A stretch of DNA of 64,000 nucleotides, from NCBI GenBank assembly GCA_024640955.1, contig JAHEDZ010000006.1, positions 1-64,000 of the forward strand. The letters are read 5' to 3'. Shown in pieces: positions 3,002 through 41,836 of this stretch. Made by a program: the position numbers and the translations under genes. Every line of letters begins with the position of its first letter. Positions within the stretch are counted from its first letter, which is position 1. The DNA is from Oceanospirillaceae bacterium (GTDB taxonomy: Bacteria; Pseudomonadota; Gammaproteobacteria; Pseudomonadales; Balneatricaceae). The notes under the pieces are model-generated. The model searched no databases and had not been told where the DNA came from. It saw nothing but the letters and a program-made list of their open reading frames with translations.

Positions 3002-3072
3002 CGCTCTTTCGCTAGAGGTAAAACAGTGCAATTCTAGATCCGTTACATCAAGCAACGGATCCAGACGAAGGT

Positions 3073-4380: not shown

Positions 4381-5151
4381 TTAAGCGTTCTCAGCATACT
4401 CCGGAGCGGTCTTCGCACCCGTGATGTAAGAAACTACGTCTTCGCCAGAGGTCTCCTCTTTACGCAGATTCGCAACAATCTTACCGCGACGGAATACTAC
4501 GATGCGATCCACCAGATCAAACACCTGACGCATGTTGTGGCTGATCAGAATCAGTGGTTCACCGGCCTCTTTCAGCGTGCGGATAATGTTCTCAACCTGC
4601 GCTGTCTCCTGAACACCCAGAGCCGCTGTTGGCTCATCCATGATGGTCAGTTTTGAGTGGAAGGTTGCAGTGCGGGCGATTGCCACACACTGACGCTGAC
4701 CACCTGACATGTTGCTGATAGCGTTGTTGATGTTCGGAATCTTAACCCCGGTCTTCTCCAGCGAGGCAAGGGTCTTCTCGCGCATCGCTTTGTAATCGAG
4801 TACCGAGAATGGCCCCAACTTGAACTTAAAGATTTCACGCCCCAAGAAAAGGTTATCTGGAACGTTCAACGCATCTGCCAACGCAAGGTTCTGGAACACG
4901 GTCTCGATGCCCGCTTCCCGCGCCTCTAGCGGCCCTTTGAAATCGACTTCTTCACCATCAAACCAAACTTTACCTGCAGTTCGCTGCTCTACAGCTGTGA
5001 TCTGACGTACAAAGGTCGATTTCCCCGCGCCGTTATCACCCATAATAGCAACGTGCTCGCCTTTGCGGATCTCAAAATTCGCACCCTCAAGTGCTTGGAC
5101 ACCACCGTAGTGTTTGGTGAGGCCTTCTGTTTTCAGAATAATATCGCTCAT
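4381..5151 (-). CDS. Sugar (inositol) ABC transporter ATP-binding protein, FrcA-like
   Basis: 256 aa; Walker A GDNGAGKST, signature SGGQRQ, Walker B LTIMDEPTAALG. Confidence 0.9.
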   Translation of the reverse strand: MSDIILKTEGLTKHYGGVQALEGANFEIRKGEHVAIMGDNGAGKSTFVRQITAVEQRTAGKVWFDGEEVDFKGPLEAREAGIETVFQNLALADALNVPDNLFLGREIFKFKLGPFSVLDYKAMREKTLASLEKTGVKIPNINNAISNMSGGQRQCVAIARTATFHSKLTIMDEPTAALGVQETAQVENIIRTLKEAGEPLILISHNMRQVFDLVDRIVVFRRGKIVANLRKEETSGEDVVSYITGAKTAPEYAENA

Positions 5152-5160
5152 CTCAAACTC

Positions 5161-6237
5161 CTAGGACTTAGCCGCTTGCTTGCGCGCACGCCACTGGTCA
5201 AGAACAACCGCGCCCACAATGATCGCTCCCTTTGCCATCTCTTGATAGAAAGCATCTAACTTGAGGAAAGTGAAGCCGGAAATAATTACACCGTAAATCA
5301 AAGCGCCAATACATGTACCTAGTATTGAGCCGCGGCCGCCAGCAAGTGATACACCGCCGATTACCGCCATCGCAATCGCGTCGAGCTCGTACATCAGCCC
5401 CATACCTGATTGCCCGGTAAGGGCCTTCGAGGACATAACAATCGCTGCAACGGCGGATAAAATGCCTGCTATTGCGTAAATCAGGACCTTGAGGCGCTCT
5501 ACTTCAATACCGGACATTCGAGCAGCCTGCTCATTAGAACCTATCGCGTAAGTGTGCTTGCCGTACTTTGTGTACCTCAGCAAAAAGTGCATCAAAACAG
5601 CAAGGGCGATAAATATGAACACGGGATTCATGCCAGCGCCAATCTCGGCATAACTCTCTTGTAGATAAGAGATTGGCACGCCTTTGGTCGTCCAGTTTGC
5701 CACTCCACGAGCAAACAACATCATACCGAGCGTCGCAATGAATGGCGGTATTTTCGCATAAGCTATCAGAGCACCATTGACCACTCCAGCTACCAAACCC
5801 GCAAATAAACCAACAACTATTGGAACAATTAAGGGTAAATTCAGATAAGCCTCGCCCAGAATTGGCTTGAGATTATCCATCCCATACTGATTGACAGACG
5901 CCTGTGCAAAGGCTGTCGCTATCATTGCGACAGCGCCGACAATCGAACCAGAACTTAGATCAATCCCCCCGGATATAATTACTTGGGTAACCCCTAGAGC
6001 GATGATACCAATGATTGCAACCTGCAAAACGATGATTTTTAAGCGAGGCTCATTAAATAAGGTATCAACACGATCGCGTGTGTTGAATAAGAAACTGTCA
6101 CCTACGAATAGTCGCCCTAAGACCTCAAAGGCACCAACGATTAAAATCAATGCAAAAAATACATTGAGCTCAGGTGGACGATGGCGCTTTTTCGGGTCGT
6201 ACTTCAAGCCGCCAAGGCCGTGCTGACTAGCCGACAT
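5161..6237 (-). CDS. Sugar (inositol) ABC transporter permease, RbsC/FrcC family
   Basis: 358 aa multi-TM protein; IISGGIDLSSGSIVG, GRGSILGTCIGALIYGVI. Confidence 0.9.
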   Translation of the reverse strand: MSASQHGLGGLKYDPKKRHRPPELNVFFALILIVGAFEVLGRLFVGDSFLFNTRDRVDTLFNEPRLKIIVLQVAIIGIIALGVTQVIISGGIDLSSGSIVGAVAMIATAFAQASVNQYGMDNLKPILGEAYLNLPLIVPIVVGLFAGLVAGVVNGALIAYAKIPPFIATLGMMLFARGVANWTTKGVPISYLQESYAEIGAGMNPVFIFIALAVLMHFLLRYTKYGKHTYAIGSNEQAARMSGIEVERLKVLIYAIAGILSAVAAIVMSSKALTGQSGMGLMYELDAIAMAVIGGVSLAGGRGSILGTCIGALIYGVIISGFTFLKLDAFYQEMAKGAIIVGAVVLDQWRARKQAAKS

Positions 6238-6268
6238 TAGAGTTCTCCCAGATATCAGACTTTTAAAA

Positions 6269-6289
6269 AAGGGCTCCGAAGGAGCCCTT
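6269..6289 (-). terminator. Intercistronic terminator-like/attenuator hairpin between binding protein and permease genes
   Basis: aagggctccgaaggagccctt with a T-run on the minus strand, between the SBP stop (6309) and permease start (6237). Confidence 0.6.
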
Positions 6290-6308
6290 GGCTTATTGCA
6301 GTTCGTAT

Positions 6309-7271
6309 TTACTTGTTGCGATCGAGGTACTGGTCGATGTTATCCATAGAAACCAGTTCGAACGGAATGTACACTTCACGAGACACTTTTTCGCCAGCAA
6401 TCAGCTTAGCAGCTGTGTCTACTGCACCAGCACCCTGTGCTGCCGCGTTCTGGAAGACGGTAACGTCAAGATCGCCGCCCTTCATCGCTGCAAGTGCATC
6501 GTCTGTAGCATCAACGCCACCGACAACAACAGAGTCCATGGAGATTCCAGCCGCCTTCATTGCCTGGATCGCACCCAAGGCCATTTCGTCATTGTTCGCA
6601 ATCACGAAGTCAAACGGATCCCCCGTAGACAACCAGTTAGTCATGATGTCCTGAGCTTTAGTACGCTGCCACTCACCAGTTGTTTTTGGCGCGACGAGTT
6701 CCATGAAATTACACATATCAAGACCCATGACCTGCTCAGCATCAGCCGTACGCTGGATTGCCGCCTCATTGGTAAGCTGTCCCATTAGCAGGTAACCGCG
6801 AGCTCCATCGGATTTGCCTTCGGCTCGAAGCTGGTTACACATCGCAAATGTCTGCAGTGTGCCAGATTCAATTTCGTTAGAAGCAACATACGCGAACGGA
6901 CCGCCATCGAGCTGCTCAATTGGTACAGGCTTACGGTTAACGAATACGGCTGGTATACCCGCATCTTTCAGCGCCTGTGTCATTGGCTGCACAGCGGTCG
7001 AATCTACTGCCTGAATAATCACAGCATCAATACCGTTTGCAATTAAGTTATTGATCTGGTCGATCTGGCGACCCTGGTCGTTATTTGCGTCCAGCTGGAT
7101 CATGGTGTGACCGTTAGCTTCCGCATAAGCCTCAGCCCCATTACGTAGAATCGTTGTAAACTTGTCATCGAATAGGTAAGCCGCAAATGCGAGATCGGCG
7201 GCGTTAGATACCTGAGCAACACCGCCAGTTACGGCAGCCGTCAGAGATGCAGCAAGGATCGTTTTTTTCAT
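6309..7271 (-). CDS. Periplasmic sugar/inositol-binding protein (RbsB-type)
   Basis: Signal peptide MKKTILAASLTAAVTGGVAQVSNA; periplasmic-binding-protein I fold (NNLIANGIDAVIIQAVDS, IANNDEMALGAIQAMKAAG). Confidence 0.9.
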   Translation of the reverse strand: MKKTILAASLTAAVTGGVAQVSNAADLAFAAYLFDDKFTTILRNGAEAYAEANGHTMIQLDANNDQGRQIDQINNLIANGIDAVIIQAVDSTAVQPMTQALKDAGIPAVFVNRKPVPIEQLDGGPFAYVASNEIESGTLQTFAMCNQLRAEGKSDGARGYLLMGQLTNEAAIQRTADAEQVMGLDMCNFMELVAPKTTGEWQRTKAQDIMTNWLSTGDPFDFVIANNDEMALGAIQAMKAAGISMDSVVVGGVDATDDALAAMKGGDLDVTVFQNAAAQGAGAVDTAAKLIAGEKVSREVYIPFELVSMDNIDQYLDRNK

Positions 7272-7353
7272 TTTTTCGTCTCCTGTTGGTGTCTGGCACA
7301 CCGATTATTGTTATTGAACCAGAAATCCTCGAAAGGACTATTTTCATGCTGAG

Positions 7354-8184
7354 TTAGCAGCTTGAACCGGATAACTCACTTGCAATGAAATCGAACGATT
7401 GAGCGATCGCCTCAGATGGATTTTCTAATCCATGCACTTCTGGCGAGAAGGGCTCAAACGAGACAGATCCACTATAACCTGCCTCCTGTAACTCTCGAAT
7501 TTGATCAACATTACCAATACGGTCGCGTGCGTCAACCAAAATTCTATGTTCATCCCGCATATCCATCGCCCCAAGCCTTGGATCTACAACACCCGAGATC
7601 TCAATAATCCCAGTGTGCTCTGGGAAAATGGGCGCGCCAATTGCGCAACCATTTGCAATAAAATGGTGGAACGTATCGTGCACCAACATAAAGGTGCTCT
7701 CTCCTTCCACCGCTTCAATAGCCTCTACGGCTTCAGCTTTGTGACGCAGCGAGCACTGCACAAAACCCAGCGGTTCGATAAACCCTTTGATACCCGCCGC
7801 TTGAAGTAGCGGCTTCAACTCAGCCAGTGCAGTTTTTAAATTTGCCTGGCGCTCGCCATCCGCAGTACCTGAGCCGTCATTTACGGGAATTAAACCGATA
7901 CCTGCAGCGCCAATCGCCGCGGCGGTTTTAACTAGAGACGCCGCCTGCTCGGCTCGTTCTGCGTTCCACTCATTGAAACGCTCTAACTGCGCCAGGCCCG
8001 TAATTTTTATATCCAAATCGACAGACAACTGCTGCACTTGCTCGGGGGAGTCGCCATCAAATAGCGGCCGGTTCAGATCATTACGAAGATGCACGCCCAC
8101 ACACCCTAGCCGTTTCGCAATGCGCATCAAATCATCGTATCGCATACTTGGGCAAGCCATGTGATTGATCGCTTTTTGCAGCAT
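7354..8184 (-). CDS. iolI: 2-keto-myo-inositol isomerase / sugar phosphate isomerase-epimerase family
   Basis: TIM-barrel protein MLQKAINHMACPSMRYDDLMRIAKRLGCVGVHLRNDL...SVSFEPFSPEVH; within the iol locus. Confidence 0.7.
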   Translation of the reverse strand: MLQKAINHMACPSMRYDDLMRIAKRLGCVGVHLRNDLNRPLFDGDSPEQVQQLSVDLDIKITGLAQLERFNEWNAERAEQAASLVKTAAAIGAAGIGLIPVNDGSGTADGERQANLKTALAELKPLLQAAGIKGFIEPLGFVQCSLRHKAEAVEAIEAVEGESTFMLVHDTFHHFIANGCAIGAPIFPEHTGIIEISGVVDPRLGAMDMRDEHRILVDARDRIGNVDQIRELQEAGYSGSVSFEPFSPEVHGLENPSEAIAQSFDFIASELSGSSC

Positions 8185-8247
8185 TCTTGTCACTCTAAAT
8201 TGGATAATGCAGCCCAAAGATAACAATCAAATTTCCAAATAACAACA

Positions 8248-8356: not shown

Positions 8357-9175
8357 TTACAGGGCTCGCAGCAGCTCTCTTGTGGTCAAGACAATCCGCG
8401 CTTCAAGATCAGTCAAAATCTCTATCCGATCGAAACGCTGCGGATTCTCTGCCAGTACTTGCCGCAGATCACGCCCAAAGGCCTGTCGCAGTTCTGTGCC
8501 GATATTGTATTTACAGATCGCTGAACTGCGCGCCAGCGATGCGCGCTGGGCTTTGGGTACCCCACTGCCTCCGTGAATGACCAGCGGTATATCGGTGCCC
8601 GCTTCGATCTTCGCCAGCAACTGCTCATCCAGTCGCGTTTCTGACTCTGTCTGCAGATGCACATTACCAATAGAGATTGCCATGGCATCGATGCCGGTTT
8701 GTTCAGCAAAACTCCGCGCCTCATCTGGATCCGTGCCCGCCGAGGACTCACCCTCGGCATAGCCGACAAAGCCAATTTCACCCTCAACCGACACCCCGGC
8801 AGCATGTGCCATACGCACGACCTCGGATGTGTGGCGGATATTGTCTGCCAGTGACAGTCGCGAGCCGTCATACATCACGCCGGTGAAACCGGCCTCTATC
8901 GCTGCACGACACTCTTCAAGGTCCCGAGAGTGATCCAAATGGATCACAACAGGCACACTGACCGACTCGGCGACCGAGCGCATCATTGTCGCTAGAACGG
9001 GTATCGGCGTGTGTGCGCGACAACCCGGGCCGGCCTGTAAAATAACAGGCGCACCCTCAGCTTCAGCAGCACGCGCGTAAGCGCGCATGTCTTCCCACCC
9101 CAGGCAGACTAGCCCTGCAACTGCATAGCGGTTTTTCAGGGCGTCCTGCAGCACCTCAGCGAGCGTTGCGATCAT
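8357..9175 (-). CDS. iolJ: Class II ketose-bisphosphate aldolase, IolJ-like
   Basis: 272 aa; PVVIHLDHSRDLEECRAAIEAGFTGVMYDGSRLSLADNI, IPLVIHGGSGVP. Confidence 0.8.
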   Translation of the reverse strand: MIATLAEVLQDALKNRYAVAGLVCLGWEDMRAYARAAEAEGAPVILQAGPGCRAHTPIPVLATMMRSVAESVSVPVVIHLDHSRDLEECRAAIEAGFTGVMYDGSRLSLADNIRHTSEVVRMAHAAGVSVEGEIGFVGYAEGESSAGTDPDEARSFAEQTGIDAMAISIGNVHLQTESETRLDEQLLAKIEAGTDIPLVIHGGSGVPKAQRASLARSSAICKYNIGTELRQAFGRDLRQVLAENPQRFDRIEILTDLEARIVLTTRELLRAL

Positions 9176-10014
9176 TTAAACTTCGACCACATCGACTTCA
9201 TTCCAGGAATTGTCTCTAACTGGCCCGCGTGAGTGGGCTGAAAGTATGGCGACAGGCCACGCTGGGCGGCACCGCCAAGGATGGTAAAATAGTACATCTG
9301 GTAGCCCGGCATTACACAGCAGGGGTGATACCCGTCATCGATCACGAAGGTAGAGCCGTCAACCACGTGGTAAGCCTCTCCCGGATCATTTTCAGACTTC
9401 TGCAGTAGCTGCAGCGCTGAGCCGGTATTGGGCTTAAAGCGGAAGTTGTAGGTCTCATCGTGACGTGTCTCCAGACCTTCACGATCATTGCCATGTTTGT
9501 GGCTAGGGAAGCCCGACCAGCCGCCCTCACCTACTGTGAAGAGCTCAGAGACAAGTAGCTTACCGACCTTACCCTGCTGCTTCATACCCAGAATATGTTT
9601 AATCTTGCGGTGCGTTTTCGTGTCGTCAGAGCCGTACTGAATCATCTCGATATCGTCAGCCATCACAGCAAAAGGCTCTAGCGCCTCTTCGAATGGCGCA
9701 CCAGCAATAAACACTTCGGCGGTGTCTGATTCACAGACAAATGCCGCCTTCTGGCCCGTTGGCACGTAAACTCCCTCAGGTTCGCCATCCCACACATCTT
9801 CAGTACGCAGGCCGATCGTGGCGATATCCTCACCTTCAACGCTGACGCTTACACGCCCCGTTGCTGGCACGATGCAGGTTTCGAAACCGGCCACTTCATA
9901 GTCAAAGCGTTCACCACGCTTAAGCTTGACGATATTGAAGTAGTTCAACGGTACCGTCTCGTTGTTCACATCAACGATCGGCTGGTTCTTATTATCGAAT
10001 GGAGCGATATGCAT
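9172..10014 (-). CDS. iolB: 5-deoxy-glucuronate isomerase
   Basis: 280 aa; SGFPSHKHGNDREG...LEEVYNFR-like region (HDETYNFRF), YHPCCVMPGYQMYYFTILGG. Confidence 0.93.
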   Translation of the reverse strand: MHIAPFDNKNQPIVDVNNETVPLNYFNIVKLKRGERFDYEVAGFETCIVPATGRVSVSVEGEDIATIGLRTEDVWDGEPEGVYVPTGQKAAFVCESDTAEVFIAGAPFEEALEPFAVMADDIEMIQYGSDDTKTHRKIKHILGMKQQGKVGKLLVSELFTVGEGGWSGFPSHKHGNDREGLETRHDETYNFRFKPNTGSALQLLQKSENDPGEAYHVVDGSTFVIDDGYHPCCVMPGYQMYYFTILGGAAQRGLSPYFQPTHAGQLETIPGMKSMWSKFK

Positions 10015-10016
10015 GA

Positions 10017-11018
10017 TTAAACTCCTGACACGCTTTGTGTCGTGTTGCGTGTACGTCTGAATTGATTGATATCTTCAAGAGTTGGCATTGCCGGAGCACA
10101 GCCTACTCGCGTTACCACAATGGCAGCAGCCGCGCTGCCGATTTGAATGGCTTCAGTGATCGGCTCACCCCGGCACAAGCTCGCCAACAAACCGCCTAAG
10201 AAAGCGTCTCCTGCTCCAGTCGGTTTAAGCGGTGAAACAGGAAAAACTCCGGTCTGGATCAGGCGACCGTCGGTCAGCAGGCTCTTAGAACCGTGCTCGC
10301 CCTGTTTGTAGATGCAGTTACACCCCTGGGCCGTGAGGAGGGCCGCTTCAGCCAACCCCCGCTCGTAATCCCCAGCGAGGTGACCAAACTCCTCATCATT
10401 GCCGACTAGCAGTTCTACATACTCCACCGCCTGATGATAAACAGTTTGGGCCATCTCTGGGCTTTCCCAAGAGTAGGGTCGGTAGTCCAGGTCCATAATC
10501 ACAGGAATACCGGCGACCTGAGCTCTCTTCAGCGCCAGCAGGCTAGCACTGCGAGACGGCTCTAACGTAAGACAAGTTCCAGTGATAACGAGGGCGCGAT
10601 AGGCGCGAAAATCGACGGCTACTATCTGCTCCTCATCCATCTGAAAGTCCGCTGCGTTGTTGCGGTAGATAACCGACTGATGATCCTCTACCCGCGACTC
10701 CGCTAACGCTAGGCTAGTACGCTCATCACCGCTGATCGTTTTTACAAGCGCGTCATTAATGCCGTAGTGAGCAAGTTGGTTACGCACAAAGCGCCCTACA
10801 GCATCATCCGATACGCAAGTCAGTAAGGCGACGGGCACTTCGTAACGACGCAAGGCAACGGCGATATTGCCGCTGGAGCCACCCAGCGCTGTCGTAAACT
10901 GCGATGCCTCTTCGGTCCGTGTGCCAGGAGGGTCCGGATAGAGGTCAAGGCCCGCCCTGCCAATCACAAGAATCGGCTGGTCCGACTCAGTTAACGCCTG
11001 AAGCAAATGCTCTACCAC
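10017..11018 (-). CDS. iolC: 5-dehydro-2-deoxygluconokinase
   Basis: 333 aa PfkB kinase; ILVIGRAGLDLYPDPPGT, LDYRPYSWES, PTGAGDAFLGGL. Confidence 0.93.
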   Translation of the reverse strand: MVEHLLQALTESDQPILVIGRAGLDLYPDPPGTRTEEASQFTTALGGSSGNIAVALRRYEVPVALLTCVSDDAVGRFVRNQLAHYGINDALVKTISGDERTSLALAESRVEDHQSVIYRNNAADFQMDEEQIVAVDFRAYRALVITGTCLTLEPSRSASLLALKRAQVAGIPVIMDLDYRPYSWESPEMAQTVYHQAVEYVELLVGNDEEFGHLAGDYERGLAEAALLTAQGCNCIYKQGEHGSKSLLTDGRLIQTGVFPVSPLKPTGAGDAFLGGLLASLCRGEPITEAIQIGSAAAAIVVTRVGCAPAMPTLEDINQFRRTRNTTQSVSGV

Positions 11019-12893
11019 CTAGACCCCCTTACGCTGGCGGTCACGACCCGCTTCAGTTTCAGCATGAGCGTCGAGCACCTCCTGACGGTTGGAGACCGCG
11101 GGGGTGCCCACCTCCCACCAAGCATGTCCCTCATTGGTCCAACCATCATAAGGATCAACATCCATCACAATTACATAGGTCCGATCAGACTCTTTCGCTC
11201 GCTGGAACGCCGCCTGCATCTCGTTTGCATCGGCAACGCGCTCAGTCTGAGCACCCATGCTCTGTGCGTGCTGTTCGAAGTCGACACCCAACTGATTCGT
11301 CGCGGTGGGTGTATCTTTAAAGAGGTTATTAAAGCTGGCATTGCCTTTGCCGGTTTGCAGCTTATTGATGACCGCGAAACCACCATTGTCGAGCACAAGA
11401 ATAATCAGCTTCTTGTCGGTGATAACTGCTGAGTAGATATCGGAGTTCATCAGCAAGTAGGAGCCATCTCCAACAAACACAATTGTATCGTTTTGCTTCT
11501 CCTGCTCACTCTGGGCAATACGAGCCCCCCAGCCACCGGCAATTTCATAACCCATGCAACTGAAACCAAACTCCACATCAACGGTGCTCACTTGCAACGT
11601 GCGCCAGTTGGCAGTCACTTCGGCCGGCAGACCGCCCGCGGCAGTAACCACACGGTCTCCCTCATCGCAGAGCGCATTTACGACCCCGATCGCCTGCGCG
11701 TAACGATTGGGACCGGACTTAATATCTGTATTAGCCGCACGGATAACGTCCCAAGCCTCGCGCTCAGATGCGGCCATATCCAACCACCCAGGCGGCGATA
11801 CGTATTCACCGAGAAGCTGTGAAAGGGCTGGCAACGACTCCTTGGCACCTGCGATCACCTCTAGACCTTGGTGCTTAAGTGCGTCATGCCGCCCGGGGTT
11901 AATCTTTATGAGCTGTGTCGTCTCGCCAAAGACTGTCCAGGAGCCTGTAGTAAAGTCCTGCAATCGAGTGCCTACGCAGAGCACTACATCAGCCTTATCA
12001 GCGAGAGCATTAGCCGAATCTGAGCCAGTCACTCCCAGTGGGCCGCAGTTCAACGGATAATCCCAACGCAAGTTTGCGCGACCGGCAATCGTCTCAACCA
12101 CCGGAATCTGATGCTCGTCGGCGAAGTGGCGGAGTGTGTCAATCGCATCGCCGTACTGCACACCACCTCCCGCAATGATCAGCGGACGCTTCGCGGTTTT
12201 TAACAGCTCGGCTGCCGCTTCAAGCTCAACAGGATCAGGGATAATTGAACGTACACGATGGACTTTGGGCTCAAAGAAGCTCACGGGGTATTCGTACACC
12301 CAGCCCTGCACATCCTGTGGCAAACCGATAAAAGCCGGCCCACAATCTGCTGGATCCAACATCGTGCCAATTGCTTGCGGCAAGGACTGTAGGATCTGTG
12401 CAGGGTGAGTAATACGATCCCAGTAGCGCGTCACGGACTTAAACGCATCGGTCACACCCAGAGTCGGGTTATTGAAATGCTCAACCTGCTGCAACACCGG
12501 ATCCGGCAGACGTGTCGCGAAGTTATCGCCACACAACATCAACATCGGCAGACGGTTTGCCATCGCAAGCGCCGAGGAGGTTATCAGATTGGCAGTACCA
12601 GGCCCGGCAGAGGCGGTACACAACATGAAACGTCGACGCAGGTGGTACTTGGCGTAAGCGGCAGCCGCGAACCCCATAGACTGTTCGTTCTGTCCTCGAT
12701 AGAGCGGCAGATCGTCCTGGACTTCGTATAACGCTTCACCCAGACAGGTAACGTTGCCGTGGCCAAAAATACCGAAGCCGCCGCCGCACAACCGAACCCT
12801 CTGACCGTCAATCTCAATCCACTGATTCTGCAGATATTTAACAATTGCTTGGGCTGTTGTCAGGGTAATTGTTTTGCCCGCTGTTGTTGTCAT
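11019..12893 (-). CDS. iolD: 3D-(3,5/4)-trihydroxycyclohexane-1,2-dione acylhydrolase (ThDP-dependent)
   Basis: 624 aa; YLQNQWIEIDGQRVRLCGGGFGIFGHGNVTCLGEAL, ThDP motif GDGSYLLMNSDIYSAVITDKKLIILVLDN. Confidence 0.95.
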   Translation of the reverse strand: MTTTAGKTITLTTAQAIVKYLQNQWIEIDGQRVRLCGGGFGIFGHGNVTCLGEALYEVQDDLPLYRGQNEQSMGFAAAAYAKYHLRRRFMLCTASAGPGTANLITSSALAMANRLPMLMLCGDNFATRLPDPVLQQVEHFNNPTLGVTDAFKSVTRYWDRITHPAQILQSLPQAIGTMLDPADCGPAFIGLPQDVQGWVYEYPVSFFEPKVHRVRSIIPDPVELEAAAELLKTAKRPLIIAGGGVQYGDAIDTLRHFADEHQIPVVETIAGRANLRWDYPLNCGPLGVTGSDSANALADKADVVLCVGTRLQDFTTGSWTVFGETTQLIKINPGRHDALKHQGLEVIAGAKESLPALSQLLGEYVSPPGWLDMAASEREAWDVIRAANTDIKSGPNRYAQAIGVVNALCDEGDRVVTAAGGLPAEVTANWRTLQVSTVDVEFGFSCMGYEIAGGWGARIAQSEQEKQNDTIVFVGDGSYLLMNSDIYSAVITDKKLIILVLDNGGFAVINKLQTGKGNASFNNLFKDTPTATNQLGVDFEQHAQSMGAQTERVADANEMQAAFQRAKESDRTYVIVMDVDPYDGWTNEGHAWWEVGTPAVSNRQEVLDAHAETEAGRDRQRKGV

Positions 12894-12940: not shown

Positions 12941-12954
12941 TGCAACCGGTTGCA
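12941..12954. promoter_or_regulatory. LacI-type palindromic operator in the iolD / Gfo-Idh divergent intergenic region
   Basis: TGCAACCGGTTGCA is a perfect 14-bp palindrome with central CCGG. Confidence 0.6.
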
Positions 12955-12971: not shown

Positions 12972-14057
12972 ATGCAAAAAATCAGGCTGGGCGTCATCGG
13001 AGGTGGCTATATGGGCAAGGCCCATTCGATCGCTGCACACTCTGTTAGCGCTGTAATGGAGCTCGAAACCGTGGTTGAGTTAGGCGGTATTGCAGCCGGT
13101 TCTGCGCAAAGCGCCGCCCGCTATGCCCAACTGTTCAATGCGCCCCACTCTTTTGCCACGGCCAAAGAGTTGATCGAATCGGACAAAATTGATGCCGTAG
13201 TCATAGCATCGCCGCAGGACACACACCTCGAATTTGTCGAACTCTGTGCCAAAGCCGGTAAGCCGGTTATGTGCGAAAAGCCGATGGGGCGAACACTGCC
13301 CGAAGCCCAAGCGATAGCTGCAGCAGCCGAATCTGTCGTTAACCTGGTTGCCTACAACTACATCAACACACCCGCCAGCGCCTATGCCCGCAAACTGATT
13401 GCCGAGGGTGCTATCGGGGAGATCACTTGGTTCCGCGGTGAGCACAACGAAGATTTTATGGTGGATGCGCTTAGCACCTGGCGCTTGCAGGGGGACGCCA
13501 ACGGGACACTGGGTGATCTTGCGCCTCATGTTATCCAGTGTGCACTCGCCTTCTGTGGCCCAATCGAATCTTTGGTCGCCGATATCAAATGCCGCCCTGA
13601 GTCGCGTCGCCAAAGCAAAGACACAGAGTCGAATGATGATCAGGTGCAATTTATGTGTCAGTTCAGTAATGGCGCGAACGGCTTCATCTCATCCTCGCGC
13701 GTAGCCCACGGGCGAAAAATGGGTTATGCCTACGAGATTCACGGCTCCGAGGGGACTATCCGCTTTGACCAAGAGGATCAGAACTGTGTTTGGCTCTATC
13801 AGCGCGACAACAGCCCAAATGCCGGCTTTCAACGTATCTTAGCCGGACCTGACCATGGTGATTTCCGATTTTTCTGTCAAGGCGCTGGCCATGGCACGGG
13901 TTATCAGGACCAGATCATTATCGAACAGGCCAATTTTATTCGTGCCATCTTGGGCCATCAGCCCGCGTGGCCTAGTTTCAGTGATGGTGTCGAGGTAATG
14001 CGGGTTGTCGACGCTATTCGAGAATCATACAAACAATCAGGCTGGGTGAGCCTGTAA
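12972..14057 (+). CDS. Gfo/Idh/MocA family oxidoreductase (inositol-locus paralog 1)
   Basis: MQKIRLGVIGGGYMGKAHSIAAHS, CEKPMGRTL; start moved to 12972 because the upstream extension lies in the intergenic region. Confidence 0.85.
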   Translation: MQKIRLGVIGGGYMGKAHSIAAHSVSAVMELETVVELGGIAAGSAQSAARYAQLFNAPHSFATAKELIESDKIDAVVIASPQDTHLEFVELCAKAGKPVMCEKPMGRTLPEAQAIAAAAESVVNLVAYNYINTPASAYARKLIAEGAIGEITWFRGEHNEDFMVDALSTWRLQGDANGTLGDLAPHVIQCALAFCGPIESLVADIKCRPESRRQSKDTESNDDQVQFMCQFSNGANGFISSSRVAHGRKMGYAYEIHGSEGTIRFDQEDQNCVWLYQRDNSPNAGFQRILAGPDHGDFRFFCQGAGHGTGYQDQIIIEQANFIRAILGHQPAWPSFSDGVEVMRVVDAIRESYKQSGWVSL

Positions 14058-14073
14058 CCAAAGGATAAAAACA

Positions 14074-14964
14074 ATGAGTATCAAAGTCGGTAATGCGCCC
14101 TGCTCTTGGGGTGTGGAGTTTGCTGGAGATCCACGCAATCCGAGTTGGCAAACCGTCCTGAAAGAGTGTGCCGATGCAGGTTATCAAGGCATTGAGCTGG
14201 GCCCCATTGGCTTCATGCCTGAGGACCCAGTTGAGCTTGCTGACGCGCTAGCCCAACACAAGCTGGAGATGATGGCAGGTGTGCTATACCAACCCTTCCA
14301 TGATGCGAGCGCCTTTGACGACTTGCTAGATAAGGCTCACCGCACCGCCCGCGCGCTGAATGCACATGGCGCCCAACAGATGGTACTGATCGATTCGATC
14401 TCAGAGCGTCGCGCACCCTCTGCCGGCCGGCCCGAAGAGGCAGTGAAAATGGATAGCGCCGAGTGGAGAGCATTTGTTGATCGCATCCGCACGGTCGCTA
14501 AGCTCGGTACCGAGGAGTACGGCCTCACCGTCAGCATTCACAGCCACAGTGCTGGCTTCGTTGATTACCTGCCCGAACTAGAACTGTTACTTCAAGAGAT
14601 CGACTCAAAACATCTCAAGCTGTGCGTAGACACCGGCCACCAAACCTATGCCGGTTTCGATCCAGTTGAGTTTATGACACGCAACTTTGATCGCTTAGCT
14701 TATGTCCACTTCAAAGATATAGATCCTGCTGTGAAAGCCCATGTTATCGCCAACCGCACCGGTTTTTATGACGCCTGTGGTCAGGGTATCTTTTGCAACT
14801 TGGGCAAGGGCGAGGTCAACTTTAACGCAGTCAAACAGCTGCTAACTGATCGTGGTTACAACGGCTGGATTACCGTTGAGCAGGACTGCGATCCAACACT
14901 CGACGTTTCACCTCTCACTGATGCGCGCGCGAACCGAGAGTTTCTCGCCAGCGTTGGCTTTTAA
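14074..14964 (+). CDS. iolE: Myo-inosose-2 dehydratase
   Basis: 296 aa TIM barrel: VGNAPCSWGVEFAGDPRNPSWQTVLKECADAGYQGIELGPIGFMPED; VDTGHQTYAGFDPVEFM. Confidence 0.93.
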   Translation: MSIKVGNAPCSWGVEFAGDPRNPSWQTVLKECADAGYQGIELGPIGFMPEDPVELADALAQHKLEMMAGVLYQPFHDASAFDDLLDKAHRTARALNAHGAQQMVLIDSISERRAPSAGRPEEAVKMDSAEWRAFVDRIRTVAKLGTEEYGLTVSIHSHSAGFVDYLPELELLLQEIDSKHLKLCVDTGHQTYAGFDPVEFMTRNFDRLAYVHFKDIDPAVKAHVIANRTGFYDACGQGIFCNLGKGEVNFNAVKQLLTDRGYNGWITVEQDCDPTLDVSPLTDARANREFLASVGF

Positions 14965-14988
14965 TTTTTTGTACTGGAGTCGTTCTAT

Positions 14989-16122
14989 ATGAAACCAATT
15001 AACTGGGGTTTGATTGGCGGCGGTCGTGGCAGTCAGATTGGCCCAGCTCACCGACTGGGTGCACGCCTCGATGGCCTGTTTAACTTTAAAGCGGCTGCAC
15101 TAGACCACCGCCCTGAAGAGGGCAAAGTTTACGGTGTAGAGCTGGGTCTAGATTCTGATCGCAGTTATGGCGACTGGCGCGAGATGCTAGAGGGCGAGCG
15201 CAACCGCGAAGATCGCATTGAGTTGGTGACCATCGCTACACCTAACGACACTCACTATGAGATCAGTAAAGCCTTCCTGGAAGCGGGCTTCCACGTACTC
15301 TGCGAAAAGCCACTGACTATGAATGTCGAGCAGGCCGAAGATCTAGTCAAAGTAGCTCAGGCGAGTGGCAAGATCTGCGCGGTAAACTATGGCTACTCTG
15401 GCTATTCACTGGTGCGCCATATGCGAGCAATGGTCGCGCGTGGTGATATCGGCAAGGTGCGCATGGTATTTGCCGAGTTTGCCCACGGCCATCACGCCGA
15501 TGCAGCAGATGCTGACAACCCGCGCGTACGCTGGCGTTACGATCCGAGCAAAGTGGGTGTATCGGCGCAGTTCGCCGATTGCGGCATCCATGCCATGCAC
15601 ATGGCCAGCTTCGTGACCAATCAACGCGTGGAACAGCTCAGCGCCGACTGCGTTAGCCTACTCCCGAGCCGCGAACTTGAGGATGACGCTATGGTGAACT
15701 TCCGTATGTCAGAAGGTACCGTGGGTCGTCTGTGGACCTCATCCTGTGCCATTGGTCGCCAGCATGGTCTGACAATTCAGGTGTTCGGTGAAACCGGAGG
15801 TCTGCGCTGGGCGCAGGAGCAGCCGAATCAGCTCTACTACACTCCCGTCGGTGGCCGCACACAGGTGATCGAGCGCGGTGAAGCAAACCTCTCCCCAGAA
15901 GCCGATCGTTCAAGTCGAGTAACGGTGGGTCACGCGGAGGGTATGCCACTCGCCTTCGGTAATATCTACACCGAATTGGCACAGGCGATTGATATGGATA
16001 AGCAGGGCCAAACGCCCGACCTAGGCTTAATTCCAATGGTCGACGCCGGCGCTGATTCGATCAAAGCGATTGCTGCGGTGGCGCGCTCGGGCAACAGCCA
16101 GGGAAGCTGGGAGTCTCTCTAG
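14989..16122 (+). CDS. Gfo/Idh/MocA family oxidoreductase (inositol-locus paralog 2)
   Basis: 377 aa; INWGLIGGGRGSQIGPAHRLGARLDGLFNF, CEKPLTMNVEQAE. Confidence 0.85.
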   Translation: MKPINWGLIGGGRGSQIGPAHRLGARLDGLFNFKAAALDHRPEEGKVYGVELGLDSDRSYGDWREMLEGERNREDRIELVTIATPNDTHYEISKAFLEAGFHVLCEKPLTMNVEQAEDLVKVAQASGKICAVNYGYSGYSLVRHMRAMVARGDIGKVRMVFAEFAHGHHADAADADNPRVRWRYDPSKVGVSAQFADCGIHAMHMASFVTNQRVEQLSADCVSLLPSRELEDDAMVNFRMSEGTVGRLWTSSCAIGRQHGLTIQVFGETGGLRWAQEQPNQLYYTPVGGRTQVIERGEANLSPEADRSSRVTVGHAEGMPLAFGNIYTELAQAIDMDKQGQTPDLGLIPMVDAGADSIKAIAAVARSGNSQGSWESL

Positions 16123-17138
16123 CTCTGCTTGACAGGCGCCAAGGTGTCACGCTCGATAATGTCGCAAGGCAACAGCGTGACACTCGGCTTCGAGGGTTCT
16201 CCGGCAGTGAGCTGAGCTTGTAAGCGATCAACCGTCAACTCCATAACTCTGGCTGTGGGCTGAGCGATGGTTGTCAAACGGATACCCTCCCAAGCGGACA
16301 TCTGGATATTGTTAAAACCGAGAATACCTACCCGCTCGGGCACCTTAACACCCGCACTATTCAGAGCATTGATAGCGCCCATAGCGATCATATCATCACC
16401 ACAGAGGTACCCTTGTGCCAGCCCCGTTTCCATCAGATGGTGCATCGCCTCATTGCCGGCCTCAAAGGTGTAGCCCTGGGCAAAATGCACCTGCACGCTG
16501 GCACCCTCGGTCTCAGCCACCGACATAAAGCCCGAAAGACGATCTCTGGTTGATGTAGCGAGCTGGGGACCACCTAAAAATCCAAGCTTGGTATAACCCG
16601 AGGCGAGCAGACGACGAGCAGCCAGAGCGCCTGCCGCTTGATTATCAATGCTCACCACATCGTACTGCCCATCATTGGTGCGCCCAAAAGCATGAACAAC
16701 CAAAAGCCCCGCCTCAACGAAGGCATCCGTGAACCCCATCGGCAAGGTCGATGAGGCCACCACAACCGCATCAACCTGATACTGCAGAAGCAGGTCCAGG
16801 CTACGTTGCGGTTCAACTTCATCAGACAGGTTGATCAGCAGCGTACGCAACCCACGTGCCTGCAACAGCCGTGTGAAGGTGTCGAGGATCTCGAGATAGG
16901 CTGGATTCTTGAAATTATTGGCAACTAAGCCAACCAGACCGGTCTGCCCTGTGGTTAAACTGCGCGCAAGGATATTGGGCCTGTAACCCAACTCCCGTGC
17001 AGCTTTCTCAACTCGCGCTTTGGTCTGGCCCGAAACCGACGCTCCAGGCGTAAATGTGCGCGATACCGCGCTGCGGCTGACACCCGCCAACTGCGCAACC
17101 TCTGCCAGGGTTACTCGATTCTTTGCTGCTCTCGCCAC
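16119..17138 (-). CDS. LacI family transcriptional regulator (probable inositol-locus regulator)
   Basis: VTLAEVAQLAGVSRSAVSRTFTPGASVS HTH; convergent stop overlap CTAG with the Gfo/Idh gene. Confidence 0.9.
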   Translation of the reverse strand: MARAAKNRVTLAEVAQLAGVSRSAVSRTFTPGASVSGQTKARVEKAARELGYRPNILARSLTTGQTGLVGLVANNFKNPAYLEILDTFTRLLQARGLRTLLINLSDEVEPQRSLDLLLQYQVDAVVVASSTLPMGFTDAFVEAGLLVVHAFGRTNDGQYDVVSIDNQAAGALAARRLLASGYTKLGFLGGPQLATSTRDRLSGFMSVAETEGASVQVHFAQGYTFEAGNEAMHHLMETGLAQGYLCGDDMIAMGAINALNSAGVKVPERVGILGFNNIQMSAWEGIRLTTIAQPTARVMELTVDRLQAQLTAGEPSKPSVTLLPCDIIERDTLAPVKQS

Positions 17139-17509: not shown

Positions 17510-18595
17510 ATGTCCGAGCGCGATTACAGCCTGTTGGGAAAAAGCGGTAAGCAAGCTGTAGAACTTGGATTGGCTGATGCTAGCTGGTACCAGTCCGACA
17601 TTCCTCGTAAAGAGATGAAGCAGTTTATGCAGCGCTCGGACAAGCCGGCTATTCGTGACACATTCATACTGTTCACAGCAATGATCGCGTTTGCAGGAGG
17701 TGGTATCTATTTCTGGGGTAGCTGGCTGTGCGTTCCATTTTGGGCTGCTTATGGAGTGCTCTACGGATCGGCGATGGATTCGCGCTGGCATGAGTGCAGT
17801 CATCGTACAGCTTTTCGTACTCGCTGGATGAACGAGTGGCTCTATCAGGTCGCCTGTTTCATGATGATTCGCAACCCAGTCTCTTGGCGCTGGAGCCACA
17901 CCCGTCACCATACGGATACCATTATTGTTGGCCGTGATCCCGAGATCGCGGCACAGAAGCCCATCTCCTTCTGGCGCCTGATTCAGAACTACATTGGTGT
18001 GATGGATGTGATTGGCGGTCTTAAGAACATGCTGATAAACGCCAGCGGTAAACTCAACCCTGAAGAGGCGACTTACATCCCCGAGATGGATAAACAACAA
18101 GCCATCACCGTCGCTCGTATTTGGCTGCTGATCTACGCTATCACTTTTGCCAGCGCATTTATGCTGCAGTCCTGGATTCCCTTAATGCTAGTGGGTCTGC
18201 CACGCATCTATGGTGCCTGGCATATGGTGTTGACAGGTATGACGCAGCACGCAGGCCTGGCGGATAACGCTATTGATCACCGGCTCAACAGTCGCACGGT
18301 GTACATGAACCCAATCAGCCGCTTCATCTACTGGAATATGAACTACCACGTTGAGCACCACATGTTCCCAACGGTGCCTTATCACCAACTGCCAGCGCTA
18401 CACGAGCGGCTGAAGGGAGATTTTCCAGAGCCGAGCCCGTCCCTGTTGGCCGCCTACCGCGAGTTTGTGCCGATTCTTTGGCGCCAGCGCAACGAGCCGG
18501 ACTACTACCTGCGCCGTCCACTACCCGCAACCGCTCAGCCGTACAAAGACCTTGTGCCGGATACTGCGGCGAATGAAACAGCCAGCGCAGCCTGA
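17510..18595 (+). CDS. Membrane fatty-acid desaturase/hydroxylase superfamily protein
   Basis: 361 aa multi-TM; histidine boxes HECSH, HTRHH, HVEHH. Substrate unknown. Confidence 0.85.
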   Translation: MSERDYSLLGKSGKQAVELGLADASWYQSDIPRKEMKQFMQRSDKPAIRDTFILFTAMIAFAGGGIYFWGSWLCVPFWAAYGVLYGSAMDSRWHECSHRTAFRTRWMNEWLYQVACFMMIRNPVSWRWSHTRHHTDTIIVGRDPEIAAQKPISFWRLIQNYIGVMDVIGGLKNMLINASGKLNPEEATYIPEMDKQQAITVARIWLLIYAITFASAFMLQSWIPLMLVGLPRIYGAWHMVLTGMTQHAGLADNAIDHRLNSRTVYMNPISRFIYWNMNYHVEHHMFPTVPYHQLPALHERLKGDFPEPSPSLLAAYREFVPILWRQRNEPDYYLRRPLPATAQPYKDLVPDTAANETASAA

Positions 18596-18617
18596 GTGCT
18601 GCGCGCCAAGAAGAGAG

Positions 18618-19646
18618 TTAGACGTTCTCGCGGGTGTAAGTGATGAACGGCAGAATACGCTCGTAGCGCAGTTCAGCATTTCTCTCAGACGCCGCTCTGC
18701 ACATCGCATCCACCGTCTCGGCGGCGAGACGATCAACCAGATTTGCGAGCAGTAGCGTCAGGGTGCCATCCAGCAAGCCCTGCACGTGAGCTGGCGCAAG
18801 ATCATGACCCACGACAAGCGGCGGACTATCCGGCTGCACATCTCTGATAGCTTCGAGACTACCGGCCAATCCGCTACCCGCCACATAGAGTCCAACCACA
18901 TCAGAATGCTGGTGCAGTAGACGCTCTGTAAGGTCGCGGGCGATCTGGTCATTCTCGTAAGTTGAGTGAACATCCAGCAACTCAAACTCTGGTGCATGCT
19001 CACGGAAGTAAGAGCGAAAGCCGATCTCATTGGCCTCCTGACAGCGGTAACGGTGGTTACCCACAAACAGTGCGACCGGGCCAGGCTGCTTTGCCATGTG
19101 GTGAATCGACCAGGCTGCAGTGCGCCCCACTTTCCAGTTATCCAAACCGATGTAGTGTGCGCCAGTGGCGATCGGCAGCGCTGAGATGATGGCAAAGACG
19201 GACTTATCCTTCTCGCGCACCTGCTGCACTGCCTGACTGATACGGGGATGCTGTGCAGCAACCACCGCAATAGCGTCACAGGATTCACCCAAAGCTGTGA
19301 TACGCGAGGCGATATATTCGGGAGAGAGGTCTTCCATATATTCGACCTCCATATCAACACGCACATCCTCTACGCTCGACGCGGCAGAGTTGAACGCATC
19401 GCCCACGTTTTTGTAGAAGCTCGTATCTTTCTGCTGCAGTAACACACCAAAGCGAAAACGGGTGAGCTTGGCCCCCAGACGGTGCTCGATAGCATGCAGA
19501 CCATAAAAACCAATGCGCTCTGCCGCCTCCAAAACCTGCTTAATGGTGACTTCCCGCACTTTCTGATGCCCGCTCAGAACGCGGTTCACTGTTGAAACGG
19601 AGACGCCAGCTTCAGCAGCGAGATCTCTAATAGTAGGGCGACCCAT
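18618..19646 (-). CDS. LacI family transcriptional regulator
   Basis: MGRPTIRDLAAEAGVSVSTVNRVLSGHQKVRE HTH; sugar-binding-like C-terminal domain. Confidence 0.9.
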   Translation of the reverse strand: MGRPTIRDLAAEAGVSVSTVNRVLSGHQKVREVTIKQVLEAAERIGFYGLHAIEHRLGAKLTRFRFGVLLQQKDTSFYKNVGDAFNSAASSVEDVRVDMEVEYMEDLSPEYIASRITALGESCDAIAVVAAQHPRISQAVQQVREKDKSVFAIISALPIATGAHYIGLDNWKVGRTAAWSIHHMAKQPGPVALFVGNHRYRCQEANEIGFRSYFREHAPEFELLDVHSTYENDQIARDLTERLLHQHSDVVGLYVAGSGLAGSLEAIRDVQPDSPPLVVGHDLAPAHVQGLLDGTLTLLLANLVDRLAAETVDAMCRAASERNAELRYERILPFITYTRENV

Positions 19647-19837
19647 AAGCAGACAACCTGATCGAAGTAATTGAAACACTGTGACACTTTATGACACAGG
19701 ATAAGCCACAAGGAGCTGGACCGAAAGCAATATTGAGAGCATTTGCAACAAATAATCCAATTCAGATTTTTTCAACTCGAATATTCCGCTTTGATAGGTA
19801 TACTTTGCGGACTGATAATTAAAATTTGGAGAGACCG

Positions 19838-20656
19838 ATGGATATCTATCATAACCGCCCTACCGTTGCTGACATCCGCGCCATGAAAGCGCGTGGCGAG
19901 AAGATCTCAATGGTCTTCGTCACTACGCTGGAAGAGGCACGCGCTGCTGATGCTGCTGGCATTCACATGCTCTCGATCGAAGGGCGATTCTTCTCTCCTG
20001 AGATGCGCGAAGCTGCGGGCAAGTGTTTTGTTCAGGTCGGTTTGCCATACGGCCCATTCGGCGAGCTCGCTACTGCTGAAGATTACCTTCGCGAAGCGTT
20101 CAAATTCATGCGCATGGGTGGTGACGCGTTCTACTGCTGTGCCGCTCTCGATATCGTAAAAACGCTCGCCGACAACGGTGTGCCAGTTGTAGGTCATATC
20201 GGTCTGTGCCCATCTAAAGCAACTTGGACCGGCGGTTTCAAAGCTGTGGGTAAATCTTTCGAGACCGCTAAATGGGTCTACGAAGAGGCGAAGAAACTTG
20301 AAGAGGCCGGCGCCTTCGGTGCTGAGCTCGAAGTTGTACCGGATCGCATTGCAGCGGAGATCACCAAGCGCTCTTCACTAATTATGCTCGGCATGGGTGG
20401 CGGACCAGATGCAGATGCGCAGTACCTGTTCGCAGAGGACATCCTGGGTTACACACCGGGTCACCGTCCACGCCACGCCAAGGTGTACCGTGACTTTGCC
20501 GCTGAATATGCTCGTCTCCAGGAAGAGCGTGTAGCAGCGTTCAAAGAGTTCATTGCTGATGTAAACAGCGGTGCCTACCCAGAAGCGGGTCACTGCGTAC
20601 CAGTTTCTGACGAAGAGTTCGCTAAATTCGAAGAATTCCTCAAGTCACAGGACTAA
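19838..20656 (+). CDS. Divergent ketopantoate hydroxymethyltransferase (PanB)-like protein
   Basis: VVGHIGLCPSKATWTGGFKAVGKS, GAFGAELEVVPDRIAAEI, LGYTPGHRPRHAKVYRDF align with PanB core motifs; start at MDIYHNRP. Confidence 0.75.
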   Translation: MDIYHNRPTVADIRAMKARGEKISMVFVTTLEEARAADAAGIHMLSIEGRFFSPEMREAAGKCFVQVGLPYGPFGELATAEDYLREAFKFMRMGGDAFYCCAALDIVKTLADNGVPVVGHIGLCPSKATWTGGFKAVGKSFETAKWVYEEAKKLEEAGAFGAELEVVPDRIAAEITKRSSLIMLGMGGGPDADAQYLFAEDILGYTPGHRPRHAKVYRDFAAEYARLQEERVAAFKEFIADVNSGAYPEAGHCVPVSDEEFAKFEEFLKSQD

Positions 20657-20680
20657 TTAGGCTAAAATAGCCGACTTTCC

Positions 20681-20700
20681 ACCGCGGGTTATCCCGCGGT
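20681..20700. other. Intercistronic stem-loop between PanB-like gene and folD
   Basis: ACCGCGGGTTATCCCGCGGT, perfect 8-bp arms, 4-nt loop; no strong T-tract. Confidence 0.6.
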
Positions 20701-20737
20701 GCTTGGTTTTGCAGATTTAATTCGAGGAAAAGTAGTA

Positions 20738-21583
20738 ATGACTGCCCTTATTCTTGACGGTAGCGCCGTAGCCAAAAAGACTGAAGCTGAACTCACCGAG
20801 CGCGTCGCTGCGCTAAAAGAGCGCAGCGGCGGCCAAACACCAGCACTGGCAACTATTCTGGTGGGTGGCGACCCAGCTTCAGCTACCTACGTTCGCATGA
20901 AGGGCAACGCCTGTAAGCGCATTGGCATGGATTCAATCACGGTAGAGATGCCGGAGGAGACCACTACCGAAGAGCTACTGGCTAAAATCCACGAGCTAAA
21001 TGCAAATCCAAACTGCCACGGCATTCTGCTACAGCACCCAGTTCCAGAACAGATTGATGAGCGCGCTTGCTTTGACGCTATTGATCTGGAGAAGGATGTC
21101 GACGGCGTTACCTGCCTCGGCTTTGGCCGCATGGCGATGCAAGAAGAGGCTTACGGTTCAGCCACACCACAGGGCATCATGCGCCTGCTTGAGGCTTATG
21201 ACATTCCACTGTCTGGCAAAAACGCTGTCGTCGTAGGTCGCAGCCCAATTCTGGGCAAGCCTATGGCGATGATGCTACTCAACAAGGATGCGACGGTAAC
21301 CATCTGTCACTCACGCACTCAGGGTCTGGCCGAAATCATCAAAGGTGCAGACATCGTTGTGGGTGCTGTGGGCCGCCCGGAGTTCATCAAAGCTGAGTGG
21401 ATCAAGGATGGTGCAGTTGTTGTGGATGCTGGCTACCACCCGGGTGGTGTCGGTGATATCGAACTTGAGCCACTGCATGACCGTGTTAGCGCACTGACGC
21501 CGGTACCTGGCGGCGTAGGCCCAATGACAATCAATACGCTGATCTACCAGTGCGTCGCATCCGGCGAGAAGAAGATCGGTTAA
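20738..21583 (+). CDS. folD: Bifunctional methylene-THF dehydrogenase / methenyl-THF cyclohydrolase
   Basis: [76 protein letters not shown]. Confidence 0.96.
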
Positions 21584-21623
21584 TACAGCCAAGGTCGCCT
21601 CATTCGAAAAAATTTGTACGAGA

Positions 21624-21710
21624 GTTATCCGACTCAGCCGGATGACACGACAATACAGAAACCTTTTTAGGAGGGTTATCCGACAGAGTCGGATGACGCG
21701 ACAAAAATAC
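21624..21710. repeat. Two imperfect direct repeats, each with an internal inverted repeat
   Basis: gttatccgactcagccggatgacacgacaatac (21624-21656) and gttatccgacagagtcggatgacgcgacaaaaatac (21675-21710). Confidence 0.65.
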
Positions 21711-21721
21711 GAGAACGCAAG

Positions 21722-22501
21722 ATGAGTCAGACACTTTTCCCTCTAGCGGCTTGTGCCGAAATGCTCTGGCAGGAGAAACCGATCGAGTGGCGTACATCAC
21801 GCCTTAAAGAGATGGGTTTTGGCGTTGGCCTGTGGAACTGGCCCGATCAGGACCTCGACAAGCTCGAGAAGTCAGGTGCCAACTTCACCATCATGAACGG
21901 TTACCTTGAAGGACGCCTGGCCGATGACGAGGGCGCAGATATGCTGCTCAAGTCCGCGCGCGAAACCGCACAGATTGGCAAGCGTTTAGGCGTTGACCGC
22001 CTCAACCTGCACGGTACAGGCCTGGGCGACGGCGGCATCCCAATTTGGCAGCACGAAGTGGTTAGCGGCGCGATGTGGATGAAGGCTAAAGACACCCTCA
22101 ACCACATCTGTGATATGGCCGAAGAGGAAGGTGTAGTATTCACACTTGAGAACCTCAACCTCCTCGACCACCCAGGCTGCCCATTCGGTAGCACTGAGGA
22201 TGTAATCGCACTGGTCTCTGCAGTAGACCGCCCGCAACTGCGTATCAACCTAGACCTCTACCACACTCAGATTGGTGGAGGTGATCTGGTGCGCTGGTGT
22301 GAAAAAGCACTGCCTTGGATTGGTGAAGTTCAGGTTGCCGACAACCCAGGTCGTTGCGAGCCGGGTACAGGCGAGATCAACTACGCGGGCGTTGCTAAAG
22401 CGCTGAAAAAGATGGGTTACACCGGCCCTGTGGGGATGGAAGCCTTCGCTGCAGGCGACGAAGAGGTTGCACTGGAAGCTTTCCGCGCCGCGTTCTCCTA
22501 A
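21722..22501 (+). CDS. Hydroxypyruvate isomerase-like TIM-barrel protein
   Basis: 259 aa; GFGVGLWNWPDQDL, FTLENLNLLDHPGCPFG, RINLDLYHTQIGGGDLVRW, NPGRCEPGTGEINY typical of the Hyi family. Confidence 0.8.
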   Translation: MSQTLFPLAACAEMLWQEKPIEWRTSRLKEMGFGVGLWNWPDQDLDKLEKSGANFTIMNGYLEGRLADDEGADMLLKSARETAQIGKRLGVDRLNLHGTGLGDGGIPIWQHEVVSGAMWMKAKDTLNHICDMAEEEGVVFTLENLNLLDHPGCPFGSTEDVIALVSAVDRPQLRINLDLYHTQIGGGDLVRWCEKALPWIGEVQVADNPGRCEPGTGEINYAGVAKALKKMGYTGPVGMEAFAAGDEEVALEAFRAAFS

Positions 22502-41138: not shown

Positions 41139-41215
41139 AAGGGCACTCCAATAGAATCCACTAAATGAAGCTGTTAGAGATAATCCGGGGCCCGAAGGCC
41201 CCGGCCAAAGCCTGA

Positions 41216-41821: not shown

Positions 41822-41836
41822 CTTCTACACCTCCTC

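Follow-up and report, generated by a model that had tools for sequence, protein, structure and literature searches.

In the rhizopine literature, Bahar's work of 1998 included, the mocDEF genes are said to remove a methyl group. MocD, MocE and MocF are part of rhizopine catabolism in Sinorhizobium meliloti (PMC10107442), and a 2013 study found LacI regulators (FixV homologues) beside mocDEF and a triosephosphate-isomerase (TIM) barrel gene in several rhizobia, for which catabolism of an inositol derivative was proposed (PMC3538637). Here we analyzed a related locus in a 64,000-nucleotide stretch of DNA from an Oceanospirillaceae bacterium (assembly GCA_024640955.1, contig JAHEDZ010000006.1, positions 1 to 64,000; hereafter the window), with particular attention to a gene for a PanB-like protein and the genes around it. 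We lean towards reading this region as an O-demethylation branch that feeds the inositol pathway, in which the one-carbon (C1) unit would be passed to tetrahydrofolate (THF) by the PanB-derived protein and then converted to formate by FolD and PurU.

The locus resembles the mocDEF system for the rhizopine 3-O-methyl-scyllo-inosamine of S. meliloti L5-30 in its MocD-type oxygenase, MocE Rieske ferredoxin and flavin adenine dinucleotide (FAD) reductase, and further in a LacI regulator, a sugar TIM barrel, a rhizopine-type ATP-binding cassette (ABC) transporter and inositol dehydrogenases. It differs in having an extra PanB-derived protein together with FolD and PurU, in belonging to a host outside the rhizobia, and in the scattering of its genes, mocE lying on a different contig next to a second oxygenase. 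The system is an extension or variant of mocDEF, and the PanB-derived family is its new part. No MocR-type regulator was noticed beside the module and no mocA/B/C/R set was identified; orthology with the L5-30 moc genes was not compared. An earlier reading of this DNA from its sequence alone (the sequence-only reading) had recognized no named pathway here. This was only partly right, as the mocDEF genes had been described for rhizopine catabolism, together with their LacI regulator and TIM-barrel neighbor (PMC3538637). That reading had also overlooked the MocD-like nature of the desaturase, the likely reductase gene at 1766-3055 and the loss of the active site in the PanB-like protein. We found no literature joining PanB with MocD, and nothing relevant on PanB, rhizopine and MocE.

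Co-occurrence of the PanB-like family with MocE and oxygenase genes

All five open reading frames of the module at 17510-22501 are intact. When one genome per species was scanned, at least 528 stretches encoding PanB-like relatives came up; the best 80 of these were examined and came mainly from Rhizobiales and Rhodobacterales, with a few Betaproteobacteria and one Trueperaceae metagenome-assembled genome. Neighborhoods were counted for the 62 of the best 80 relatives that had enough flanking DNA, a set chosen by similarity to the window protein. MocE was encoded at 60/62 loci, a di-iron oxygenase at 59/62 and both at 58/62, with MocE no more than 2 kb from the PanB-like gene in 57/62. Within 8 kb lay ABC transporter genes (53-55 of the 62 loci), TIM barrels (50), LacI regulators (48) and IolG (31). 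The recurrent neighborhood consists of LacI, a MocD or sterol-desaturase-type oxygenase, MocE, a reductase and the PanB-like gene; it also occurs with a TIM barrel, IolG and a rhizopine-type ABC transporter, and in some lineages with FolD and PurU.

Since these 62 loci had been picked by similarity to the window protein, we took an independent sample of 399 genomes of the phylum, in which 18 genomes besides the source carry the PanB-like family, at 24 sites. MocE was present in 17/18 of them versus 2/20 genomes without the family, the latter being controls from another lineage. Counted from coordinates, it was situated within 3 kb at 18/24 sites and within 8 kb at 19/24. The gene grouping is thus more than chance. 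The gene set that the sequence-only reading had picked out is real. That reading's view of it as a catabolic module linked to inositol genes is borne out, and the module recurs: co-occurrence is widespread and not limited to one strain.

A distant member of the family (44% identity, on a deep branch; locus L053:10043-11849, genome G190, another family of the same class) abuts a sterol-desaturase-type oxygenase; that genome gave no match to MocE. At another locus (L078) the PanB-like gene stands without an oxygenase and has conjugation-type genes downstream. The family was absent from the one same-family genome and from all same-order genomes sampled, and the gene was therefore likely acquired horizontally from Alphaproteobacteria.

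A PanB descendant without the PanB active site

Families were assigned by profile scans against Pfam and NCBIfam/TIGR/PRK with curated cut-offs. The PanB-like protein, a soluble protein of 272 residues, scored under both PanB cut-offs (TIGR00222, 112.6 versus 207.55; PRK00311, 133 versus 272). A canonical panB is found on contig C26, so that the window gene is a paralogue. The sequence-only reading had named a sole panB copy here as a finding that would speak against its view, and this is not the case.

We take the Mg2+/ketoacid ligands of ketopantoate hydroxymethyltransferase (KPHMT), the enzyme encoded by panB, to be D45, S46, D84, K112 and E114 (E. coli numbering), and E181 to be the general base. 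We aligned 91 members of the PanB-like family with 10 canonical PanB proteins, including that of E. coli. The Mg2+/ketoacid residues were conserved in 10/10 canonical proteins, whereas in 91/91 family members the D45/S46 loop is deleted, D84 is replaced by Gly, and K112 and E114 are absent. HMMER placed Tyr and Cys at the K112 and E114 positions; gap placement there is uncertain, but whatever the placement, both residues are missing. Equivalents of H136 and E181 are kept, the latter as E165 in all 91. In the tree the family forms a clade of its own, with 100/100 support and a very long branch. An AlphaFold2 model, for which the alignment rows were taken from the genome scan, reached a predicted template modelling score (pTM) of 0.86. 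Its 28 best PDB matches were all ketopantoate hydroxymethyltransferases, and the overall fold agrees with that of E. coli PanB (PDB 1M3U) at a template modelling (TM) score of about 0.75. The isocitrate lyase/phosphoenolpyruvate mutase (ICL/PEP-mutase) fold was also among the structure matches. Because the residues that bind Mg2+ and ketoacid in KPHMT are missing throughout, the family is not PanB; it is therefore a PanB descendant unable to perform PanB chemistry in the known way. Hundreds of bacterial genes labelled as PanB of pantothenate synthesis appear to be misnamed, their products being linked to oxidative O-demethylation of inositol-type sugars.

This loss bears directly on the retro-aldol step that the sequence-only reading had proposed, in which a catabolic PanB-type enzyme would move the hydroxymethyl carbon of a branched or methylated sugar to THF. 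The PanB fold and the nearby FolD and PurU genes speak for such an enzyme, but its Mg2+ ligands, ketoacid-binding lysine and D45/S46 loop are gone in every member, and it would leave the near-constant MocE and oxygenase partners unexplained. We consider it improbable, and rejected it as the leading view on account of the lost active site. Given a partner oxygenase of the MocDE(F) type, oxidative O-demethylation would be the natural entry step. The C1 route proposed earlier, through THF, FolD and PurU, appears to be right, with both enzymes recruited to the cluster in several lineages, and only the entry chemistry was probably wrong.

Loss of the canonical site, and the fact that the PanB-like gene accompanies the oxygenase and MocE almost everywhere, whether or not folate genes are present, would also fit a non-catalytic or regulatory protein, such as a chaperone or scaffold of the MocD/MocE oxygenases. 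However, many polar residues of the kind that line a pocket (H120, E163, E165, Y99, C100, W130, R212 and H213) are invariant across 31 diverse members, which is unusual for a pure scaffold and makes this explanation, too, quite improbable.

Instead, the PanB-derived protein is best explained as the step that brings C1 units to THF: the metal- and ketoacid-binding half has been lost, the fold of a THF-dependent hydroxymethyltransferase has been kept, and an O-demethylase gene adjoins, sometimes with FolD and PurU. A more specific version, which we put forward tentatively as a possibility, is that the family is a dedicated enzyme loading the carbon of O-demethylation onto THF, either from formaldehyde or from the O-hydroxymethyl intermediate, and so a folate counterpart of the formaldehyde-activating enzyme (Fae). 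The likeness to Fae, which uses tetrahydromethanopterin (H4MPT), and to the glutathione-linked FrmA/FrmB would reside in the capture of formaldehyde on a carrier; the proteins and carriers are unrelated, and this genome has FrmA and FrmB as well. To our knowledge, no dedicated enzyme for the reaction of formaldehyde with THF has been described. He and colleagues found the spontaneous reaction to be very slow in vivo, too slow to matter for growth, and considered PanB as a promiscuous catalyst, although deletion of panB in E. coli had no effect (PMC7073904). If the C1-loading role is true, the family would supply this missing enzyme and would be useful for synthetic methylotrophy.

The oxygenase, its likely reductase and MocE

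All components of a MocDEF-type three-component set are found in the genome. The desaturase is 61-65% identical to MocD-like desaturases encoded upstream of ferredoxin genes annotated as MocE on annotated plasmids, and is the sole PF00487 gene of the genome. It has all three His boxes of a di-iron membrane oxygenase (HECSH, HTRHH and HVEHH), and H94, H130, H134, H247 and H283 are invariant in 18 relatives; no solved structure for MocD was found by sequence. The reductase shares 39-44% identity with reductases adjoining MocE in related clusters. The MocE Rieske ferredoxin is encoded outside the window, on contig C24, is 64-74% identical to cluster MocE proteins and passes its curated cut-off (TIGR02377, 176.9 versus 136.15).

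In this genome a close MocE is encoded solely at the C24 locus (L051:9997-11428 and 8921-9913, both on the minus strand), together with a sterol-desaturase-type membrane oxygenase (FA_hydroxylase) and a glutathione-S-transferase-like gene. That oxygenase is 63% identical to the one in the Gemmobacter cluster. The PanB-like protein and the TIM barrel at 21722 are likewise closest to sterol-desaturase-type clusters (70% and 80% identity to Gemmobacter). MocD, the transporter, IolG and the TIM barrel at 7354 have their nearest relatives in MocD-type clusters, for example that of Marivivens. These mixed affinities, together with the separate oxygenase locus on C24, suggest that a single ferredoxin and a single PanB-like protein serve two oxygenases in this genome. 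Side by side, a sterol desaturase and a MocD-like match also occur in Jiella (L152), with MocE and a reductase.

A proposed route from O-methyl group to formate

In the pathway that we favor, a methylated inositol (pinitol, ononitol, bornesitol or a rhizopine-like compound) would be imported by the ABC transporter, and its O-methyl group would be hydroxylated by the MocD-like oxygenase with electrons passed from the MocF-like reductase to MocE. The resulting hemiacetal would yield free inositol and a C1 unit at the level of formaldehyde. The inositol would enter the IolE-D-B-C-J route by way of the TIM barrels and IolG. The PanB-derived protein would transfer the C1 unit to THF, taking it either from free formaldehyde or straight from the O-hydroxymethyl hemiacetal, after which FolD and PurU could release it as formate for a last oxidation by formate dehydrogenase.

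This disposal route has a parallel in the purU-mabO-folD genes of pAO1, in which a demethylase is flanked by purU and folD and the C1 unit is disposed of alike (PMC3891541). Both systems couple demethylation to THF with FolD and PurU; in pAO1 the flavoprotein N-demethylase itself loads THF, whereas here a di-iron O-demethylase and the PanB-derived protein are proposed to share the task. The window folD is a paralogue of a canonical folD on contig C24. The window FolD and PurU are only 41-48% identical to their counterparts in other clusters (PurU 46-48%). Such low identity between clusters suggests that the same functions were recruited separately. A formate dehydrogenase above its cut-off is encoded on contig C39. 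Within the window, 39954-44722 encodes a molybdoprotein resembling the formate dehydrogenase alpha subunit (961 amino acids), under the curated cut-off for that enzyme, adjoining a 430-amino-acid protein without an NCBIfam hit; a moeA-like gene is situated at 51235-52551.

Several observations weigh against the pathway as drawn. The window also encodes FrmA and FrmB, which together make up a complete glutathione route for formaldehyde, and FolD or PurU lies within 8 kb in just 10/62 relatives. The mocE gene is away from the module, and some mocDEF clusters have no PanB-like gene next to them (L151:9977-13817 and L152:1795-7875), so that the PanB-like gene is not obligatory for demethylation. 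No LacI operator common to the module was found, and a hairpin separates the PanB-like gene from folD, where it could attenuate or separate transcripts; terminator-like sites in the region were no commoner than in shuffled sequences. The first two observations suit an alternative in which O-demethylation proceeds alike while formaldehyde is handled by glutathione, FrmA and FrmB, and the PanB-derived protein acts not on THF but on the ring product or intermediate, as an isomerase, lyase or hemiacetal breaker. Membership of PanB in a superfamily of C-C/C-O lyases, apparent in the ICL/PEP-mutase matches, is also in its favor. However, several separate lineages, this one included, have FolD and PurU next to the PanB-like gene, and the closest fold is that of a hydroxymethyltransferase that uses THF. 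We regard this alternative as rather unlikely, though it deserves serious weight.

Substrate, transport and regulation

Inositol-type sugars are abundant in legumes and conifers. O-methyl-inositols, already suggested in the sequence-only reading, are the most plausible substrates, judging from the neighboring genes. The transporter is of the same type as one annotated as rhizopine-binding, and its ATPase, permease and binding protein are 81%, 69% and 57% identical to those of the Marivivens moc-cluster transporter. The TIM barrel at 21722-22501 shares 80% identity with the one between mocE and the PanB-like gene in Gemmobacter fulvus and 73% with that of Neotabrizicola; its assignment as hydroxypyruvate isomerase (Hyi) was rejected (116.6 versus a cut-off of 353.45). 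Conceivably, the oxygenases hydroxylate not an O-methyl-inositol but a different methyl ether, a lipid or an N-methyl compound, for instance, and it is incidental that inositol genes lie nearby. The substrate is indeed deduced from neighbors only, and many sterol-desaturase-type clusters have no IolG nearby (IolG in 31/62). Yet IolG, sugar-type ABC transporters, LacI regulators and sugar TIM barrels dominate the neighborhoods, and rhizobial mocD is tied to rhizopine (PMC3538637, PMC10107442), which leaves this explanation very improbable.

A perfect palindrome, TGCAACCGGTTGCA, is located at 12941-12954, where iolD and a Gfo/Idh/MocA gene diverge. Four related loci (L117, L128, L129 and L134), all with inositol-type genes, share this 14-mer, which is likely a LacI-type iol operator conserved across classes. 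It was not found upstream of the PanB-like gene.

Gene content of the window

The features of the locus are collected in Table 1. An alternative in-frame TTG start is possible for the PanB-like gene at 19826. The IolE-like protein scored under its curated cut-off (TIGR04379, 173 versus 290).

Table 1 Module genes and neighboring features, with the support for each assignment
Feature	Position	Strand	Support
MocD-like di-iron membrane oxygenase, proposed O-demethylase	17510..18595	+	PF00487 FA_desaturase, 132.5 bits versus cut-off 29.7
LacI-family regulator, divergent from PanB-like gene	18618..19679	-	PF00356 and PF13407; 36-47% identity to LacI of related clusters
PanB-derived protein, proposed C1/hydroxymethyl transfer to THF	19838..20656	+	PF02548 (Pantoate_transf), 147.9 bits versus cut-off 28.7
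Hairpin between PanB-like gene and folD	20680..20701	+	9 pairs, GC, weak T tail
FolD paralogue (methylene-THF dehydrogenase/cyclohydrolase)	20738..21583 (alternative start 20699)	+	PRK14192, 527.3 versus equivalog cut-off 475
Hyi/epimerase-like TIM barrel	21722..22501	+	PF01261 (xylose-isomerase type)
PurU, formyl-THF deformylase	701..1570	-	TIGR00655, 301.1 versus cut-off 285.95, true equivalog
MocF-like FAD ferredoxin reductase	1766..3055	-	Pfam Pyr_redox_2 and Reductase_C
IolG-type inositol 2-dehydrogenase	3073..4077	-	TIGR04380, 427.9 versus 355; 70% identity to Marivivens IolG
ABC transporter	4381..7301	-	ATPase 4381-5151, permease 5161-6237, binding protein 6309-7301
TIM barrel, MocD-linked type	7354..8226	-	48-52% identity to TIM barrels beside mocD clusters
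iolB, iolC, iolD	9172..12893	-	IolC TIGR04382, 308 versus 300; iolB and iolD by open reading frame content and position
Gfo/Idh/MocA dehydrogenase, IolE-like protein, second Gfo/Idh/MocA dehydrogenase	12975..16122	+	Profile scans
LacI-family regulator, probably iol	16119..17138	-	Profile scans
FrmB/FghA and FrmA	59097-59927 and 59978-61111	-	TIGR02821, 419.5 versus 281.7; TIGR02818, 618.2 versus 543.95

Convergent with the TIM-barrel gene at the end of the module, 22504-25026 encodes a hybrid histidine kinase with a response-regulator domain, which seems unrelated to the module.

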